DNA of 61,565 nt from Chloroflexota bacterium (GTDB lineage: Bacteria; Chloroflexota; Dormibacteria; Dormibacterales; Dormibacteraceae), in the NCBI GenBank assembly GCA_005889135.1, contig VBEK01000121.1, positions 1 through 61,565 of the forward strand, in the 5' to 3' direction. The notes under the pieces are model-generated. The model was not told the origin of the DNA, did no database searches, and was given only the letters and a program-made list of their open reading frames with translations. A program made the position numbers and the translations under genes. The first letter of the stretch is position 1. Each line of letters opens with the position of its first letter. Of the stretch, positions 13,342-41,340 are shown piece after piece.

Positions 13342-14153
13342 CGGCGGCAGTACACGGTCGTTCGGCCCGCGATGCGCACGGACGTCAGAGGGCGCCCGCA
13401 TGTGAAGCACGGCTCGCCCGCGCGGCCGTAGACGAGCAGCTTCTCCTGCTGCGCCCCGACCTCGCCCCACGCGTCGCGATACGTGTCCACGGAGCTGCCG
13501 CGATTGGCGATCGCGACCTGGAGCGACTCGCGCAAGGACTCGTGCAGGCGCCGCGCCGACTTCCTGCTCACCGTCGAGGCGACGCGCGTCGGCCGCAGCC
13601 CCGCGCGGTGGAGCGACTCGTCGGCGTAGATGTTGCCCACGCCCGCGATCGCCCTCTGGTCCAGCAGCACCGCCTTCAGCGGCGCCCGGCGCCGACGCAG
13701 CTCGCGATAGAGCTGTTCGGCCTCCCAGCTCGCGTCGATCGGCTCCGGGCCGAGGCGCGGCATCTTCTTCGCGATGAGCAGCGCCTCCTCGGAGCCCACG
13801 AGCAGGCGGCCGAAGCGGCGCGGGTCGCGGTAGCGCAGCTGGCGCCCGTCGTCGAGAAAGAAGACGGCGTGCGTGTGCTTCTCCAGCGGCGCGACCTCGT
13901 CGAGCAGCCGCAGCTGTCCCGTCATGCCGAGGTGCACGACCAGGGCAACGTCCGACGAGAGGCGGATGAGGATGTACTTGCCCCGCCGGCCCACCGACTC
14001 GATCTGCATTCCGGCCACGGCGTCGATGAACTCTTCGGGCTCGGGGTGGCGGACGATGGTCGGGAACGACAGCTCGCAGCGCACGATGGTCCGCCCGACC
14101 AGGTGTGGCCGTAGGTCGGCGACGATGGTCTCGACCTCGGGCAGCTCAGGCAC
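13329..14153 (-). CDS. mutM: Formamidopyrimidine-DNA glycosylase (Fpg/MutM)
   Basis: Bifunctional base-excision glycosylase/AP lyase for 8-oxoguanine and formamidopyrimidines. The 274 residues begin PELPEVE after the initiator, so catalytic Pro-2 and Glu-3 are exposed once Met is removed; Lys of HLGMTGQL is in place. The helix-two-turns-helix region follows at NIYADESLHRAGL, and the C-terminal zinc finger is CFTCG...YCRRC. The start is GTG. The 42-bp repeat cluster lies directly upstream, its nearest copy ending 5 nt before the GTG, so the repeat may overlap this gene's promoter (GACTAT, 7 nt before the start). Confidence 0.96.
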   Translation of the reverse strand: MPELPEVETIVADLRPHLVGRTIVRCELSFPTIVRHPEPEEFIDAVAGMQIESVGRRGKYILIRLSSDVALVVHLGMTGQLRLLDEVAPLEKHTHAVFFLDDGRQLRYRDPRRFGRLLVGSEEALLIAKKMPRLGPEPIDASWEAEQLYRELRRRRAPLKAVLLDQRAIAGVGNIYADESLHRAGLRPTRVASTVSRKSARRLHESLRESLQVAIANRGSSVDTYRDAWGEVGAQQEKLLVYGRAGEPCFTCGRPLTSVRIAGRTTVYCRRCQH

Positions 14154-14159
14154 AGCTCG

Positions 14160-14259
14160 GATAGTCGCGACTAACGCGGGTCATGGGCGCCGAAAACCCG
14201 CGATAGTCGCGACTAACGAGGGATTTGGTCGGCCGGCACATCGGATAGTCGCGACTATC
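14160..14259 (+). repeat. 42-bp-period palindromic repeat, cluster 1 (three units)
   Basis: Three copies of GATAGTCGCGACTA begin at 14160, 14202 and 14244, exactly 42 bp apart. The first two continue AAC; the third continues TC and so forms the perfect 16-bp palindrome GATAGTCGCGACTATC. The 26-28 bp between cores are partly conserved (CGAGGGATTTGG-like). The cluster fills the gap between the polA stop and the mutM start. It is the same family as 33438-33537 and 41207-41306. Confidence 0.9.
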
Positions 14260-14276
14260 GTGGAAAGCCGGCATCT

Positions 14277-16964
14277 TCAGGCGCGGACGACCGCGAGCTT
14301 TTTCATGTCGGCCCAGTTCGGCCCGACCTTCATCTCCACCTCGATCCCCGTCTCCAGCTCATACGCGCCGGTCATGACCCGCGGCACCTTCTCCGCGAAC
14401 TGGTCCAGCTCGGCGTGCGGCACCTCGAAGAGCAGCTCGTCGTGAACCTGGAGCAGCATCCGTCCCTCGATCTCGTCGGCCTCGATCTCGCGATGCAGGC
14501 GCACCATCGCGATCTTGATGATGTCCGCGGCCAGCGACTGCATCGGGAAGTTGATCGCCATGCGCTCGGCGGCGCTGCGCAGCTGGTAGTTGGGCGAGCG
14601 CAGGTCGGGGATCGCGCGGCGGCGGCCCGTGGCGCTGACGACGAAGCCCTCCTCGCGCGCCTTGCGCCGCACCTCGTCGAGATACTCGCGGAGGTGCGCG
14701 TAGGTGGACCAATACTGGCCGAGGAACTCGCGCGCGACGTCGCCGGTGATGCCCAGCTGTTGCGACAGCCCGTACTCGCCCTGGCCGTAGATCGAGCCGA
14801 AGTTCGCGACCTTGGCCAGGCGTCGCTGGTCGGGGTTGACCTGCTCGAGCGGAATCTTGAACACGGCCGCCGCGGTGGCGGTGTGGATGTCCTGCCCGGC
14901 CGCGAACGCGCCGAGGAGCTTGGGGTCACCGCTCAGGTGCGCCGCGATGCGCAGCTCGATCTGTGAGTAGTCGGCCGACACCATCACGTGGTCGGGCCGC
15001 CCAGCCTTGAACGCGCGGCGGATGCGCTGCCCGAGCTCGGTCCGGATCGGGATGTTCATCAGGTTCGGGTTGGACGACGAGAGCCGTCCGGTCGCCGTGC
15101 TCGCCTGCCCGAACGACGTGTGCACGCGCCCGCTGAGCGGGTCGACCAGCTGGGGAAGCGCGTCCACGTAGGTGGACTTGAGCTTCGACAGCTGCCGGTG
15201 CTCGAGGATCAGGCCGACGATCGGATGCTTCTCGCGCAGCGCCTCGAGCGTGTCGGCGTCGGTCGAGTAGCCAGTCTTCGTCCTCTTTCCCACCGGCAGG
15301 CGCAGGTCTTCGAACAGCACCTTGGCCAGCTGCTGCGGCGCGTTGAGGTTGAACTTCTGGCCCGCAACCTCCTCGACCTCGGTCTCGATTGCCGCGAGCT
15401 GCGAGCCGAGCTCCTCCTGCATCTGCTTCAGGTAGGGCACGTCGATGGCCACGCCCTCGGTCTCCATGTCCGCGAGCACGCCGGCGAGCGGAAGCTCGAT
15501 CTCGTGGAAGAGATAGTCGACGCCAAGGTTCCGCATCTCGGCCTCGAGCCGCGGCCTGAGGTTGAGGATGGCCTCGGCGCGGCGGGCCGAGTACTCTGCG
15601 GCGTCGCCCTGCGCGATCGCCGAAGGCTTGCGCGCGGCGCGACCAGAGCCGAGCAGCTGCTCCGTGCTCACGAGCTCCCTGCCGAGGAACTCGTGCGCCA
15701 GGTCCTCGAGGCGCGGGTCGCGCGACCCTGCGCCGAGCAGGTACGCCGCGAGAAACGTGCTGAACGCCCAGTCGCGCCTGCCGCCGCCGAGCGAGCGCAG
15801 GGCGAGCTCCGTCTCCTTGGCGTCGTGGCCCGAGATCGGACGCCCCGACAGGGTGCTCGCGACAGCGTCCATGGCTTCGGGGCGCGACACATAAAAGGTA
15901 TGGGCGCCGATCGATACGCCGAGCCCGCAGACGCGGCAGCCCCGGCCCGACCCCTCGGTGAACGTGTAGACGCCCACGTCCTCGGAGCCGTCGAGAAGCG
16001 CGGCGGCCTCGGTGGGATCGTCCACGATCTTCAGCCCGGGCGATTGCGGCGCCGGCTCGAAAGTCAGGCTCGGCTGGACCGGCGCCTGGTCAGGCGGAGG
16101 AAAGCGGCTCAGCAGCTGGCGGAACTCGAGGTGGTCGAAGACTCGACGCGTCTTCTCGTAGTCGTAGCGAGTCCACCGCGCCTTCTCGAGCTCGAGCTCG
16201 ACGGGCACGTCGCGGACGATCGTCACCATGCGCTTGCCCAGGCGCACCTTGTCGGCGTTGGCCTGGAGCGACTTCTTGAGCCGGCCCTCGGGCAGCTCGT
16301 CGAGCCTGTCGAGCAGCGCCTCGACGCTGACGTAGTCCTGGACGAGCTTGGCCGCCGTCTTGTCCCCGACCCCGGGCACGCCGGGGATGTTGTCCGACGT
16401 GTCGCCACGCAGCGCCTTGAAGTCGACCAGCTGCGCGGGCTCGAAGCCGTAGCGCTGGCGCACCTGGTCAGGGCCGTAGACGAACGTGTCGGTGATCCCG
16501 CGGCGCGGCACCAGCGCCTCCACCGACTCGGTGACGAGCTGGAGGCAATCGAGGTCACCAGAGACGATGGTCACCGCGTGGCCGCGCTCGTCGGCGATCC
16601 GCGCCAGGGTGCCGATCACGTCGTCTGCCTCGAACCCCTCCACCCCATAGATGGGGATCGCGAACGAGTCCAGCACCTCGCGCACCATCTCGATCTGGGG
16701 CCGCAGGTCGTCGGGCATGGCACGGCGCCCAGCCTTGTACTCCTCGTACTCCTGGGAGCGAAATGTCGGCTTGCCGAGGTCGAACGCGGCGATCGCGAAC
16801 TCCGGCCGCGAGGCCAGGACGATGGCCAGCATCGAAGTGAACCCGTAGACGGCGTTCGTCACCCGCCCGTCCGACGTGCTCATCGGCGGTAGGGCGAAAA
16901 ACGCCCGGTAGATGAGGCTGTGGGCGTCGATCAGGATGAGCCGCCCGCGTCTCCCCTTCGCCAC
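14277..16964 (-). CDS. polA: DNA polymerase I
   Basis: Repair and Okazaki-fragment polymerase, 895 residues. The N-terminal 5'-3' exonuclease (1-290) has the metal-binding pattern LILIDAHSLIYRAF, GFEADDVIGTLA and FKALRGDTSDNIPGVPGVG. The middle 3'-5' exonuclease domain (about 310-500) lacks the DxE metal ligands (VYTFTEGSG replaces FDTET), so proofreading is probably absent, as in Taq and Bacillus Pol I. The polymerase domain (500-895) has motif A SADYSQIELRI, motif B RRLAKVANFGSIYG and motif C LLQVHDELLFE. The GTG start sits 6 nt after TAAGAT, suggesting a leaderless mRNA. BFN nuclease is divergent. Confidence 0.97.
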   Translation of the reverse strand: MAKGRRGRLILIDAHSLIYRAFFALPPMSTSDGRVTNAVYGFTSMLAIVLASRPEFAIAAFDLGKPTFRSQEYEEYKAGRRAMPDDLRPQIEMVREVLDSFAIPIYGVEGFEADDVIGTLARIADERGHAVTIVSGDLDCLQLVTESVEALVPRRGITDTFVYGPDQVRQRYGFEPAQLVDFKALRGDTSDNIPGVPGVGDKTAAKLVQDYVSVEALLDRLDELPEGRLKKSLQANADKVRLGKRMVTIVRDVPVELELEKARWTRYDYEKTRRVFDHLEFRQLLSRFPPPDQAPVQPSLTFEPAPQSPGLKIVDDPTEAAALLDGSEDVGVYTFTEGSGRGCRVCGLGVSIGAHTFYVSRPEAMDAVASTLSGRPISGHDAKETELALRSLGGGRRDWAFSTFLAAYLLGAGSRDPRLEDLAHEFLGRELVSTEQLLGSGRAARKPSAIAQGDAAEYSARRAEAILNLRPRLEAEMRNLGVDYLFHEIELPLAGVLADMETEGVAIDVPYLKQMQEELGSQLAAIETEVEEVAGQKFNLNAPQQLAKVLFEDLRLPVGKRTKTGYSTDADTLEALREKHPIVGLILEHRQLSKLKSTYVDALPQLVDPLSGRVHTSFGQASTATGRLSSSNPNLMNIPIRTELGQRIRRAFKAGRPDHVMVSADYSQIELRIAAHLSGDPKLLGAFAAGQDIHTATAAAVFKIPLEQVNPDQRRLAKVANFGSIYGQGEYGLSQQLGITGDVAREFLGQYWSTYAHLREYLDEVRRKAREEGFVVSATGRRRAIPDLRSPNYQLRSAAERMAINFPMQSLAADIIKIAMVRLHREIEADEIEGRMLLQVHDELLFEVPHAELDQFAEKVPRVMTGAYELETGIEVEMKVGPNWADMKKLAVVRA

Positions 16965-33257: not shown

Positions 33258-33421
33258 ACCGACCGGGAACCCAGCGTGGCCAGGGGATGGTCGAATTCGC
33301 CCTGATCCTCGCCCTGATCGCCCTCGTCGTCATCGTCGCCCTGCTCCTGACGGGCGCCCAGGTGACGAACCTGTACTCGAACATCACGGCGACGATGTGC
33401 AACTACCACGTCGGCTGCTGA
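33251..33421 (+). CDS. Flp-type pilin, copy 2
   Basis: A 56-residue tandem duplicate of the preceding pilin. The leader MLNRPGTQRG precedes QGMVEFALIL, giving the same G/QGMVEF processing site with Glu+5 and an aromatic at +6. The hydrophobic core is LALIALVVIVALLLTGA, and the tail YSNITATMCNYHVGC differs from copy 1 by a single residue (N for S). GTG 33251 overlaps the stop of copy 1; another GTG at 33233 is possible. The strict conservation of the Cys-x5-Cys tail suggests a disulfide or subunit contact. Cluster 2 of the 42-bp repeat follows directly. Confidence 0.75.
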   Translation: MLNRPGTQRGQGMVEFALILALIALVVIVALLLTGAQVTNLYSNITATMCNYHVGC

Positions 33422-33437: not shown

Positions 33438-33537
33438 GATAGTCGCGACTAACCAGCGATTCGGGGCTCGAGAACCGCGGATAGTCGCGACTAACGAGGC
33501 ATTTGCGGCTCGACAACCCCGGATAGTCGCGACTATC
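33438..33537 (+). repeat. 42-bp-period palindromic repeat, cluster 2 (three units)
   Basis: GATAGTCGCGACTA begins at 33438, 33480 and 33522, again exactly 42 bp apart. The third unit is the perfect palindrome GATAGTCGCGACTATC and supplies the stop codon of the KDPG aldolase gene (minus strand). The inter-core sequence shares GAGG-ATTTG with cluster 1. The cluster fills the gap between convergent pilin and aldolase genes. Confidence 0.9.
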
Positions 33538-34177
33538 CGGTGACGGGAACTGCCGCCGCCGCCTGAGCGGCCCGGGCGGCATTCTGCCGGATCACCTCCA
33601 GGTTCTTCTGGGCCAGCGCCTCGGCCGGGAACAGCGACCCTGTCAGCCCGACGGCCTTGACCCCCAGGCGCAGGTAAGCGTCGATCTCCTCGATGGCCAC
33701 CCCGCCCGACACCCACAGCGGCACGCCGCCCATCGGCCCGCTCAGCGCCTCGATGTAGCGCGGCCCGCCGACCGGCGCGATCGGGAACACCTTGACCAGC
33801 GCCGCGCCCGCCAGCCGAGCCTGATAGATCTCCGTCGGCGTCAGCGCGCCCAGGACGCAGAGGATGTCGTGCTCGCGGCACGCCTGGCCAACCTCTGGAA
33901 GCAGGACCGGCGTGACCACGAACGAGGCGCCCGCCTCCTTGGCCTCCTTCACCGCACCCGGGTCCCAGATCGTGCCGACCCCGATCGGATAGCGATTGCC
34001 GGTGCTGGCGATCAAGCCCTTCACCAGCTCGAAGCACGAGGGCACGGTCTTCGTGATCTCTATCGTCCCGATGCCCGCCTCCAGCGCGGTCAGGCACGCC
34101 TGAAAGCCGACCTCGGCGTTCTCGGTCCGAAGCACGCCGCAGATCCGGGTGGGGAAGGCCTCGGGGATGCTCCGCAC
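33533..34177 (-). CDS. eda: 2-dehydro-3-deoxyphosphogluconate (KDPG) aldolase
   Basis: Class I aldolase cleaving KDPG to pyruvate and glyceraldehyde 3-phosphate (Entner-Doudoroff pathway). The 214 residues show the catalytic Glu in IGTIEITKTV, the IGVGTIWDPG loop, the Schiff-base Lys in ALVKVFPIAP and the phosphate-binding end WVSGGV...VKAVGLTGSLF. The start is GTG, 10 nt after GATAAT in GGGATAATTCC, suggesting a leaderless mRNA. Its TAG stop lies inside a 42-bp repeat unit. No gluconate dehydratase (edd) is nearby, so a role with another 2-keto-3-deoxy sugar acid is possible. Confidence 0.88.
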   Translation of the reverse strand: MRSIPEAFPTRICGVLRTENAEVGFQACLTALEAGIGTIEITKTVPSCFELVKGLIASTGNRYPIGVGTIWDPGAVKEAKEAGASFVVTPVLLPEVGQACREHDILCVLGALTPTEIYQARLAGAALVKVFPIAPVGGPRYIEALSGPMGGVPLWVSGGVAIEEIDAYLRLGVKAVGLTGSLFPAEALAQKNLEVIRQNAARAAQAAAAVPVTG

Positions 34178-40118: not shown

Positions 40119-41195
40119 ATGCGTGACCGAGCGCGCACAGACGGCAACGACGCAGACGGGCTGCATGGGACCCAAAGATCCGTCGATGGTCACCAGCGAC
40201 GAAGCCGTCGCCTTCTGGACTCATATGGCCGTGTCGCGGACGACCTTCGGATCTCGGTCACCGACCGGTGCAACTTCCGCTGCATCTACTGCATGCCCGC
40301 CGAGGGCCTGAAGTGGCTGAAGCGGGAGGACATCCTCCGCTACGAGGAGATCGTGCGCCTGGCGCGGATCTTCGTCGAGCGCTACGGCGTGCGCACGATC
40401 CGGATCACCGGCGGGGAGCCGCTGGTGCGGGTCAAGCTCGAGGAGCTCGTCGGGATGATCAACTCGATCGATCCGACGCTCGACATCACGATGACCACCA
40501 ACGGCGTGCTGCTGCGGCAGAAGGCGCAGGCGCTCAAGGACGCAGGCCTTAAGCGCATCAACATCTCGCTCGACACGCTGCACATGGACCGGTTCCACGA
40601 GATGGCGCGCAGCGACGCGTTCGACCGCGTGATGGACGGCATCACCGCGGCGCGCGAGGCGGGCCTGTGGCCGATCAAGCTGAACATGGTCGTGATGAAG
40701 GGCCACAACGACGACGAGGTCGTCGACTTCGCGCGTCTGGCCCACAGCGAGGGTTATGAAGTCCGGTTCATCGAGTTCATGCCCCTCGACGGCGACAACA
40801 TCTGGACCAACGAGCAGGTCGTCCCGAGCCGCCGGATCATGGAGCAGATCGAGGACCAGTTCCCGCTGGTGCCCTTCGACGAAAGTCGCCCCGGGCCCGC
40901 GACTCGCTACACGTTCGCCGACGGCGCGCCCGGCGGGATCGGCTTCATCTCCTCGGTGAGCCAGGCCTTCTGCACCGCGTGCAACCGCGTCCGCCTGACG
41001 GCGGAGGGTGGCCTGCGCACCTGCCTGTTCTCGCTGCAGGAGACGCCCCTGCGCGACCTGATGCGCTCGGGCGTCTCGGACGACCACCTCGGGTCGGTGA
41101 TCGAGACCGCGATCTGGCGCAAAGAGGAAGGACACCTGATCAACAAGCCGGGTTTCATCAAGCCGGCGAAGTCGATGTCCCAGATCGGGGGCTGA
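40119..41195 (+). CDS. moaA: GTP 3',8-cyclase MoaA
   Basis: Radical-SAM enzyme catalysing the first step of molybdenum cofactor synthesis (with MoaC, not in this window). The 358 residues have the N-terminal cluster motif CNFRCIYC (CxxxCxxC), the GGEP motif ITGGEPLVR and the C-terminal [4Fe-4S] site in CTACNRVRL...GGLRTC. The sequence ends GG, the conserved C-terminal tail that inserts into the active site. The first 35 residues are arginine-rich and not conserved in the family, whose usual beginning is DSYGRVADDLRISVTDRC; the true start may be a little later, but no other ATG, GTG or TTG exists in frame. Confidence 0.94.
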   Translation: MRDRARTDGNDADGLHGTQRSVDGHQRRSRRLLDSYGRVADDLRISVTDRCNFRCIYCMPAEGLKWLKREDILRYEEIVRLARIFVERYGVRTIRITGGEPLVRVKLEELVGMINSIDPTLDITMTTNGVLLRQKAQALKDAGLKRINISLDTLHMDRFHEMARSDAFDRVMDGITAAREAGLWPIKLNMVVMKGHNDDEVVDFARLAHSEGYEVRFIEFMPLDGDNIWTNEQVVPSRRIMEQIEDQFPLVPFDESRPGPATRYTFADGAPGGIGFISSVSQAFCTACNRVRLTAEGGLRTCLFSLQETPLRDLMRSGVSDDHLGSVIETAIWRKEEGHLINKPGFIKPAKSMSQIGG

Positions 41196-41206: not shown

Positions 41207-41306
41207 GATAGTCGCGACTAACGAGGGTTTTCGGTCTGGCCCGAGCGCGATAGTCGCGACTAACACGGGCATTCGGTCGCCAATACGCTCGATAGTCGCG
41301 ACTAAC
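41207..41306 (+). repeat. 42-bp-period palindromic repeat, cluster 3 (three units)
   Basis: GATAGTCGCGACTA begins at 41207, 41249 and 41291, exactly 42 bp apart; all three continue AAC. Inter-core sequences again contain GAGGG-TTT and CGGGCATT-like stretches. The cluster begins 12 bp after the moaA stop and ends about 45 bp before the xseA start, so it occupies most of this intergenic region. It is the same family as 14160-14259 and 33438-33537. Confidence 0.9.
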
Positions 41307-41340
41307 CGGGGGTTGTCGCGGCCGATCGCCGAGTGGCCTC

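Follow-up and report, generated by a model that had tools for sequence, protein, structure and literature searches.

42-bp palindrome arrays as probable solo target sites of an AbiEi/DUF559 nuclease element in a Dormibacteraceae genome

Results

Three arrays of one palindrome in the window

The window, that is, the whole stretch of 61,565 nucleotides that was analysed, is contig C19 of assembly G000 (2.95 Mb in 221 contigs) and contains the 14-mer GATAGTCGCGACTA exactly at 14160, 14202 and 14244, at 33438, 33480 and 33522, and at 41207, 41249 and 41291. A first-pass annotation of this DNA had described nine identical copies in three clusters of three, 42 bp apart within every cluster, and all of them were found again where it had placed them. 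When up to three mismatches to GATAGTCGCGACTA are allowed, the window has 21 matches, compared with a mean of 4.39 and a maximum of 11 in 100 shuffles.

Array 1 (14160–14259, −) consists of three 16-bp units and two 26-bp spacers, with 12-bp cores at 14162–14173, 14204–14215 and 14246–14257 and spacers (−) at 14176–14201, which is diverged and follows a weak consensus only, and at 14218–14243. It lies between the stop of polA (14277, −) and the start of mutM/fpg (14153, −). Array 2 (33438–33537, −; cores at 33440–33451, 33482–33493 and 33524–33535; 26-bp spacers at 33454–33479 and 33496–33521, −) lies where two 3′ ends converge, those of a Flp-pilin-like short ORF (+, ends at 33421), whose Flp_Fap match scores under Pfam's cut-off, and of an aldolase ORF (33533–34177, −). 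The TAG of the last core doubles as the stop codon of the aldolase ORF, and the earlier description of three intergenic sites does not hold entirely for this one. On the 3′ side of the aldolase gene in the eight relatives found in the stretches examined, no array of this kind is present. The segment 33114–33421, which adjoins array 2 and covers the Flp-pilin-like ORF, is a tandem duplication with a period of 164 (1.9 copies, 79% matches). Array 3 (41207–41306, −; cores at 41209–41220, 41251–41262 and 41293–41304; 26-bp spacers at 41223–41248 and 41265–41290, −) is located between moaA (+, ends at 41195) and xseA (+, starts at 41333). Arrays 1 and 2 each have GATAGTCGCGACTATC, a 16-bp palindrome, as their last unit, as had been noted, and array 3 does not. 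The names polA, mutM, aldolase, moaA and xseA, as well as gltB and aconitase below, come from the annotation made for this analysis.

A near-invariant core repeated at four helical turns

Across G000, the 14-mer occurs 156 times in forward and 147 times in reverse orientation (control, 0), and the 12-bp core TAGTCGCGACTA has 242 exact copies (reversed control, 0), a figure that may differ from the true copy number because the arrays break the assembly. At L025 (6285–6345) and L030 (493–660), two contigs end and begin inside one array, with identical flanks. The 383.5 kb of G000 examined contain 94 exact cores. These form 34 clusters, 33 of them distinct, since two represent one locus on overlapping contig ends; these stretches were mostly picked around known copies, which biases the density and leaves the spacing unbiased. 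The clusters hold three (16 cases), two (9), four (5), one (3) or five (1) cores, and 59 of the 60 neighbour spacings are 42 bp, the remaining one being 43 bp. Rarity, random spacing and a mostly coding location, named in the first-pass annotation as arguments against phased binding sites, were each looked for and none was seen; of the 34 clusters, one falls within a predicted gene.

The repeating unit is 42 bp long and comprises GTTAGTCGCGACTATC and a 26-bp spacer of weak consensus, whose T-run and A-run can be read as an additional dyad, weak and 21 bp away from the core. Spacers of one array are on average 75% identical and those of different arrays 43%, and a weak consensus runs through all of them, which bears out the earlier view of divergent tandem repeats rather than CRISPR spacers. 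Neighbouring units, including those with up to three core mismatches, differ at 5 of 732 core positions versus 183 of 780 spacer positions. Only nine inexact cores are in phase with exact ones, and elsewhere their number is close to the shuffled expectation (11 versus 7 with two mismatches, 75 versus 79 with three). Fourteen units agree with a unit from a different array at no fewer than 21 of 26 positions, 3 of them from the duplicated locus, leaving 11, compared with a mean of 0.31 and a maximum of 7 in 300 draws of the null. An apparent inversion of one L031 unit inside its array is not claimed, the spacer consensus being itself nearly palindromic. A de novo scan for palindrome pairs returned 3 pairs in 346.5 kb of relatives versus 10, all at 42 bp, in 189.1 kb of G000, indicating that arrays are sparse in those relatives.

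The first-pass annotation had proposed that a sequence-specific protein occupies the palindrome in register at four helical turns, and the pattern of a near-invariant core is consistent with this part of the proposal. In its second part, the arrays are host chromosome-organising or global regulatory sites and a dimeric protein binds each triplet. This would likewise suit the unchanging distance of four turns, the estimate of some 88 arrays in the genome (242 copies at 2.76 per cluster) and, by our reading, the recurrence of AT-rich steps in the 42-bp consensus at intervals of about 10.5 bp. The location of the arrays bears on this second part.

Arrays favour the 3′ ends of genes

Using gene predictions from a simple coding model, we assigned the 34 arrays by hand to 14 convergent gaps, 17 tandem gaps and 1 divergent gap, with one array intragenic and one at a contig end. 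Relative to a background of 64 convergent, 258 tandem and 61 divergent intergenic gaps, the 32 classifiable arrays are in excess in convergent gaps (binomial p = 0.0003) and in deficit in divergent ones (p = 0.027). In seven of the 34 arrays, a core TAG serves as stop codon for a neighbouring gene.

This distribution, with convergent 3′ ends favoured (14/32) and divergent promoter regions nearly free of arrays (1/32), argues against a nucleoid-associated, chromosome-organising or global regulatory role. So do four observations described below: arrays lie on both sides of a nuclease gene in ten species, the palindrome family differs by species at the same locus, one array is inside gltB, and two genus members have no exact copy of either form of the core. 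We therefore regard host sites of this kind as distinctly unlikely; the 3′-end bias, the flanking of the nuclease gene, the locus-wise change of family and the gltB insertion make more sense for an element that disperses than for a host regulon, and a host function may be layered on top of such an element.

A location at gene 3′ ends would also be expected of transcription terminators or RNA hairpins, and the three window arrays indeed fold strongly as RNA (z of −4.6 to −7.0 in four folds), the first core pairing with the third. Several features speak against this explanation, which we consider very unlikely. The palindrome extends down to its CGCG or CCGG centre, which fits duplex recognition. 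Relative to the upstream gene, the units of the 17 tandem arrays have no preferred orientation (by hand count, 8 with, 8 against and 1 unassigned). No T run follows the three window arrays on either strand, no Rfam family reaches its gathering score in the stretch searched (13900–14500), and one of the arrays at the C200 gene described below is upstream of the gene.

The gltB gene of G000 contains an array as an insertion of 87 nt that keeps the reading frame and encodes two 14-residue units. Among the 14 relatives compared at this site (two further genomes gave no match), 12 are without insert, and G007 and G008 have a different insert of 30 nt. The latter (L133 and L132, respectively) is in frame, carries a GGGAGGCCCTCCC palindrome and sits at the place of the G000 array. 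The G000 array adjoins a native core-like sequence, read in G006 as GTGCGTCGCGACAATC, and by our count 13 of its 16 positions match the core unit. A core-like target of this sort is clear at gltB only, and no target-site duplication was identified.

A CCTCCCC...GGGGAGG-like hairpin repeat fills the same intergenic sites in several relatives, namely at moaA/xseA (L102, L103, L104 and L105), 3′ of the aldolase gene (L115, L123 and L126) and at L118 (19289). The sites common to this repeat and the arrays suggest insertion hot spots after stop codons.

Sister species carry other palindromes at shared sites

The core TAGTCGCGACTA was found in 9 of 101 genomes (own, genus, family and class), with 242 copies in G000, 34 in G009 and 1–4 in each of the other seven. 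The centre-swapped core TAGTCCGGACTA, with CCGG in place of CGCG, is present in 15 of the 17 genus members and in 1 of 25 genomes from other genera; it is most numerous in G008 (64) and has 14 copies in G000. In two members of the genus, G004 and G015, neither form has an exact copy. At the polA/mutM and moaA/xseA sites, G000 has CGCG arrays and sister species have CCGG arrays, some of them degenerate, at one or both sites (G006, G008, G009, G011 and G013). Pairs of the TTTTGCGCAAAA type, again partly degenerate, are located at these sites in G007, G012 and G014, and other hairpin repeats or nothing at all are seen there as well. TTTTGCGCAAAA forms a dispersed family of its own, present in 11 of 42 genomes and often paired 39–42 bp apart. 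It occurs in G000 (L054 9371–9461, C73:14151–14203), near another DUF559 gene on C73, and also in another genus (G024).

A nuclease-like gene lies between two arrays

On contig C200 of G000 (L061/L151), one gene lies between two arrays, and the same arrangement is found in G009. Its neighbours in G000 are a MerR-type gene and RsfS, and no AbiEii (nucleotidyltransferase) toxin gene is present among the annotated neighbours. The encoded protein of 293 aa (L151, 1393–2271) fuses an AbiEi-type DNA-binding half to a DUF559 half. Relatives of it are found in 17 of 17 genus genomes (1 to 16 matches each), with ten full-length ones at 60% identity or more (G000, G009, G014, G012, G010, G016, G007, G011, G005 and G006). 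The type is also represented by broken or fragmentary genes in G001 and G003, and G014 has an additional copy that is partial. Viral contigs gave 24 pattern matches and no relative of the protein, phage DNA gave no match, and plasmids gave two weak matches with the paralogue L208 as the query.

Core pairs are located on both sides of the gene at all ten full-length loci, 42 bp apart except for one pair at 41 bp (G009) and one at 43 bp (G005), and many of these cores carry one or two mismatches. G012 has a single exact TAGTCCGGACTA genome-wide, yet inexact pairs flank its C200-type gene. The flanking cores are of the CGCG form in G000 and G009 and of the CCGG form in the other eight. In G000 and G006, the gene ends at the TAG of its downstream core. 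At seven of the ten loci, the flanking arrays are mutually inverted (G014, G012, G010, G016, G007, G011 and, by BLAST, G005), and those of G000, G009 and G006 agree more closely when aligned in direct orientation. Terminal repeats in inverted orientation were accordingly rejected as a trait of all these loci.

Gene and core forms do not go together everywhere. G004 and G015 are without the C200 core forms and without a C200-type gene. G008 has 64 exact CCGG cores in a 95%-complete assembly and no full-length C200-type relative above 53% identity, and G013 (46 copies) and G002 (25), both less complete assemblies, have more distant or fragmentary relatives only.

The C200-type gene is found at four loci in different species. 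At Loc1 (MerR/RsfS), it is present in G000 and G009. Loc2 holds the gene in G014, G012, G010, G016 and G007, a split copy in G001 and a two-core solo array in G009. Loc3 holds it in G011 and on a G003 contig that is possibly mis-binned, being 99.4% identical to G011 over 1.9 kb. At Loc4, 3′ of aconitase, G005 and G006 carry the gene and G000 has a solo array. A clean empty Loc3 in G000 is not claimed, as the insert there exceeds the size of the element. In the nuclease tree, G000 groups with G009 (0.977) and G005 with G006 (0.954); in a species tree from three proteins, several nodes of which are weak, G000 groups with G006 (0.834) and G005 stands apart. The CGCG flanking cores follow the G000 and G009 nuclease clade, against the species-tree pairing of G000 with G006.

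Predicted fold of the C200 protein

The C-terminal part of the C200 protein matches DUF559 (E = 7e-8), and the N-terminal two thirds match AbiEi models (PADLOC AbiEi, E = 1e-15; Pfam AbiEi_1, below cut-off); no match to the Y1 family was found in this array-flanked protein. In an alignment of 20 sequences (A1), E192, D225, E236, D238 and H242 are invariant in 20/20. The AlphaFold2 model (mean pLDDT 91.0, pTM 0.84) was compared with the PDB by Foldseek, where Rv2827c (1zel, E = 9e-5) ranks first, followed by AbiEi (6y8q, E = 1.3e-4), four T. gondii mitoribosomal chains, the catalytic domain of the homing endonuclease I-Bth0305I, the best nuclease match for the DUF559 half (3r3p, E = 0.038, TM 0.80 by target over 98 residues, probability 1.00) and then PvuRts1I (4oq2). 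Among solved structures, 3hrl, an 'Endonuclease-Like Protein', gives the strongest match to the sequence profile (E = 4e-6). The protein is predicted to combine an AbiEi-like DNA-binding half with a homing-endonuclease-like PD-(D/E)XK half. Another DUF559-containing protein, Caulobacter VsrA, is reported to be linked to DNA damage (PMC12907096).

DUF559 paralogues lie beside other palindromes at the same spacing

The flanks of DUF559 loci in the genus were scanned for near-palindrome pairs 37–47 bp apart, with thresholds that were set after a first look. A pair was found at 31 of 69 loci (24 upstream, 20 downstream, 13 both) and none at these thresholds at the other 38, fragments included. Counted by flank, 44 of 138 DUF559 flanks, some of which are cut by contig ends, have a pair versus 8 of 520 flanks of 260 other genes (p = 6e-25), a test in which independence is overstated because the 69 loci include orthologues and fragments. 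Family-A cores had been masked around the control genes, and several of the 8 positive control flanks look like true members of other families. The spacing is 41–43 bp in 43 of the 44 pairs. When the scan was widened to 22–80 bp, 30 of 61 full-length loci had a pair, at 42 bp (32), 41 bp (7), 43 bp (4) and 33 bp (1).

In other genera of the family, pairs are present at 8 of 20 loci, or 7 of 19 without the mis-binned L250, with 11 of 11 pairs at 42 bp, and of eight further loci, two, including a mis-binned one, have a pair at 42 bp and another has a pair at 67 bp. A phylum search at E = 1e-20, in which five candidates per genome were scored, matched 20 of 400 genomes, and 19 of these belong to the same family. 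It should be noted that the assemblies are fragmented drafts in which mis-binning occurs. L198/L250 and L196/L288 are 98–99% identical over 2.1 and 3.3 kb and are binned in different genera or families (G012/G017 and G012/G062), which reflects either mis-binning or very recent transfer; L250 and L288, near-identical to G012 contigs across the whole overlap, were dropped as independent cases.

The palindromes differ between DUF559 paralogues, about twenty of them by our reading. Two of these palindromes reach their highest count in a genome that has the matching gene. Among the 17 genus genomes, GCCATTCGNGCNCGAATGGC has 4 copies in G005, which has the matching gene, 1 in G001 and 0 in the other 15. 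With one mismatch allowed, CGAGTGCCGGCACTCG has 13 copies in G009 and 2 in G011, both with the matching gene, as well as 4 in G000, 3 in G006 and 3 in G012 (control, 1 in four genomes), so that G000 and G006 outnumber G011 although no matching gene was seen in either.

These data bear on the possibility that the arrays are REP-like repeats moved by another enzyme, such as a Y1/RAYT transposase, and that the DUF559 gene is a passenger between them. Arrays outnumber nuclease genes, G008 has many arrays and no cognate gene was found in it, and hairpin repeats of another type occupy the same intergenic sites in relatives, all of which would fit a passenger. It is hard to explain in this way, however, why different DUF559 paralogues lie beside different palindromes, all at the 42-bp spacing, and we consider a passenger gene unlikely.

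Discussion

Given the flanking of the nuclease gene, the change of locus and the dispersed units, we consider it probable that the clusters in the window are solo target arrays of a nuclease element and were dispersed by its activity, its binding, cutting and mobilisation being what we infer from these patterns. The master copy of the element likely lies elsewhere in the same genome, on contig C200. The element would have the form array–AbiEi/DUF559 gene–array, and its protein would bind the palindromes, probably cooperatively at the four-turn spacing, and may control its own gene from the upstream pair. Cutting at the core would lead to the copying and insertion of 42-bp units, sometimes of the whole gene cassette, elsewhere in the genome, mostly at gene 3′ ends. 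Either repeated cutting and repair or selection for recognition could keep the core exact while the spacers drift. The presence of the gene at different loci across species is at most an indirect sign of such cutting and self-copying.

The upstream pair looks like an AbiEi-type operator. By analogy, AbiEi-like proteins could simply regulate their own genes through the arrays, which would then be operators spread by ordinary duplication, with the nuclease half playing no role. AbiEi binds two 23-bp inverted repeats in its own promoter, bends the DNA and represses itself (PMC7319586), and this paired arrangement favours the analogy. On the other hand, pairs are found downstream of the gene as well, there are 242 copies with unit subfamilies common to different arrays, and the putative nuclease residues are invariant in all 20 aligned proteins, which makes this reading quite improbable. 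An operator would require neither a second pair after the gene nor a change of locus, an insertion in frame or units scattered over the genome, and for these reasons we take the arrays as nuclease targets. A single fast-evolving site of one host protein was rejected as the whole story, since nuclease paralogues lie beside palindromes of their own. It should be noted that the alternatives weighed here are not mutually exclusive.

More tentatively, and with the balance of judgement still somewhat against it, these elements could represent a new modular class of mobile DNA. Its members would be AbiEi–homing-endonuclease fusions for which a four-turn palindromic target serves as both operator and cut-and-join junction, 42-bp units or the gene would be swapped between junctions, and each paralogue's new specificity would sweep the arrays of a genome, as in the change from CCGG to CGCG in the G000 and G009 lineage. 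If the arrays are nuclease targets at all, an unrelated enzyme would join the nucleases tied to dispersed palindromic repeats, AbiEi/DUF559 fusion proteins would gain a proposed role, and about twenty protein and palindrome pairs at near-fixed spacing would form a natural series in which the code between an AbiEi-type domain and its target could be read. Among open-licence PMC texts, judged for DUF559 by title or the opening of the abstract, we found no paper linking palindromic repeats to DUF559 or AbiEi/DUF559 and, by title, none tying REP repeats to homing endonucleases in intergenic DNA.

Comparison with known systems

Unlike the unrelated spacers of CRISPR arrays, the spacers here are related to one another, as their identities within and between arrays show. 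Mycobacterial MIRU and Rickettsia palindromic elements form tandem units at operon junctions by stop codons and can insert in frame into genes. The likeness of our arrays to them that we claim is one of layout, and the units here are linked to an identified nuclease gene. The predicted catalytic fold resembles that of the Vsr-like homing endonuclease I-Bth0305I, which we take to be of the EDxHD class. Unlike in I-Bth0305I, the gene here is free-standing between arrays, has an AbiEi-type DNA-binding half and has no adjoining intron or intein that we could see.

The AbiE type IV toxin–antitoxin system has in common with the C200 locus the AbiEi-like N-terminal two thirds of the protein and the paired inverted repeats before the gene. 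In contrast to AbiE, the C200 gene has no annotated AbiEii neighbour and a nuclease domain is fused to the protein, the sites are also found downstream and genome-wide, and the published AbiEi operator repeats are 23 bp long and separated by 3 or 13 bp (PMC7319586).

The closest parallel in behaviour is with REP, BIME and REPIN sequences and their RAYT enzymes. As described in PMC2817692, repeat copies there also flank the enzyme gene, solo copies are dispersed mostly outside genes, and repeat and enzyme lineages appear to go together. Unlike in REP/RAYT, the unit here is a near-constant 42 bp with a short, perfect palindrome, usually in triplets, the flanking arrays are inverted at only seven of ten loci, and the enzyme is not a Y1/HUH transposase. 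The arrays and the putative nuclease would work like RAYT and REP but fail that family's defining enzyme, in whose place stands an AbiEi and DUF559 fusion of the PD-(D/E)XK type.
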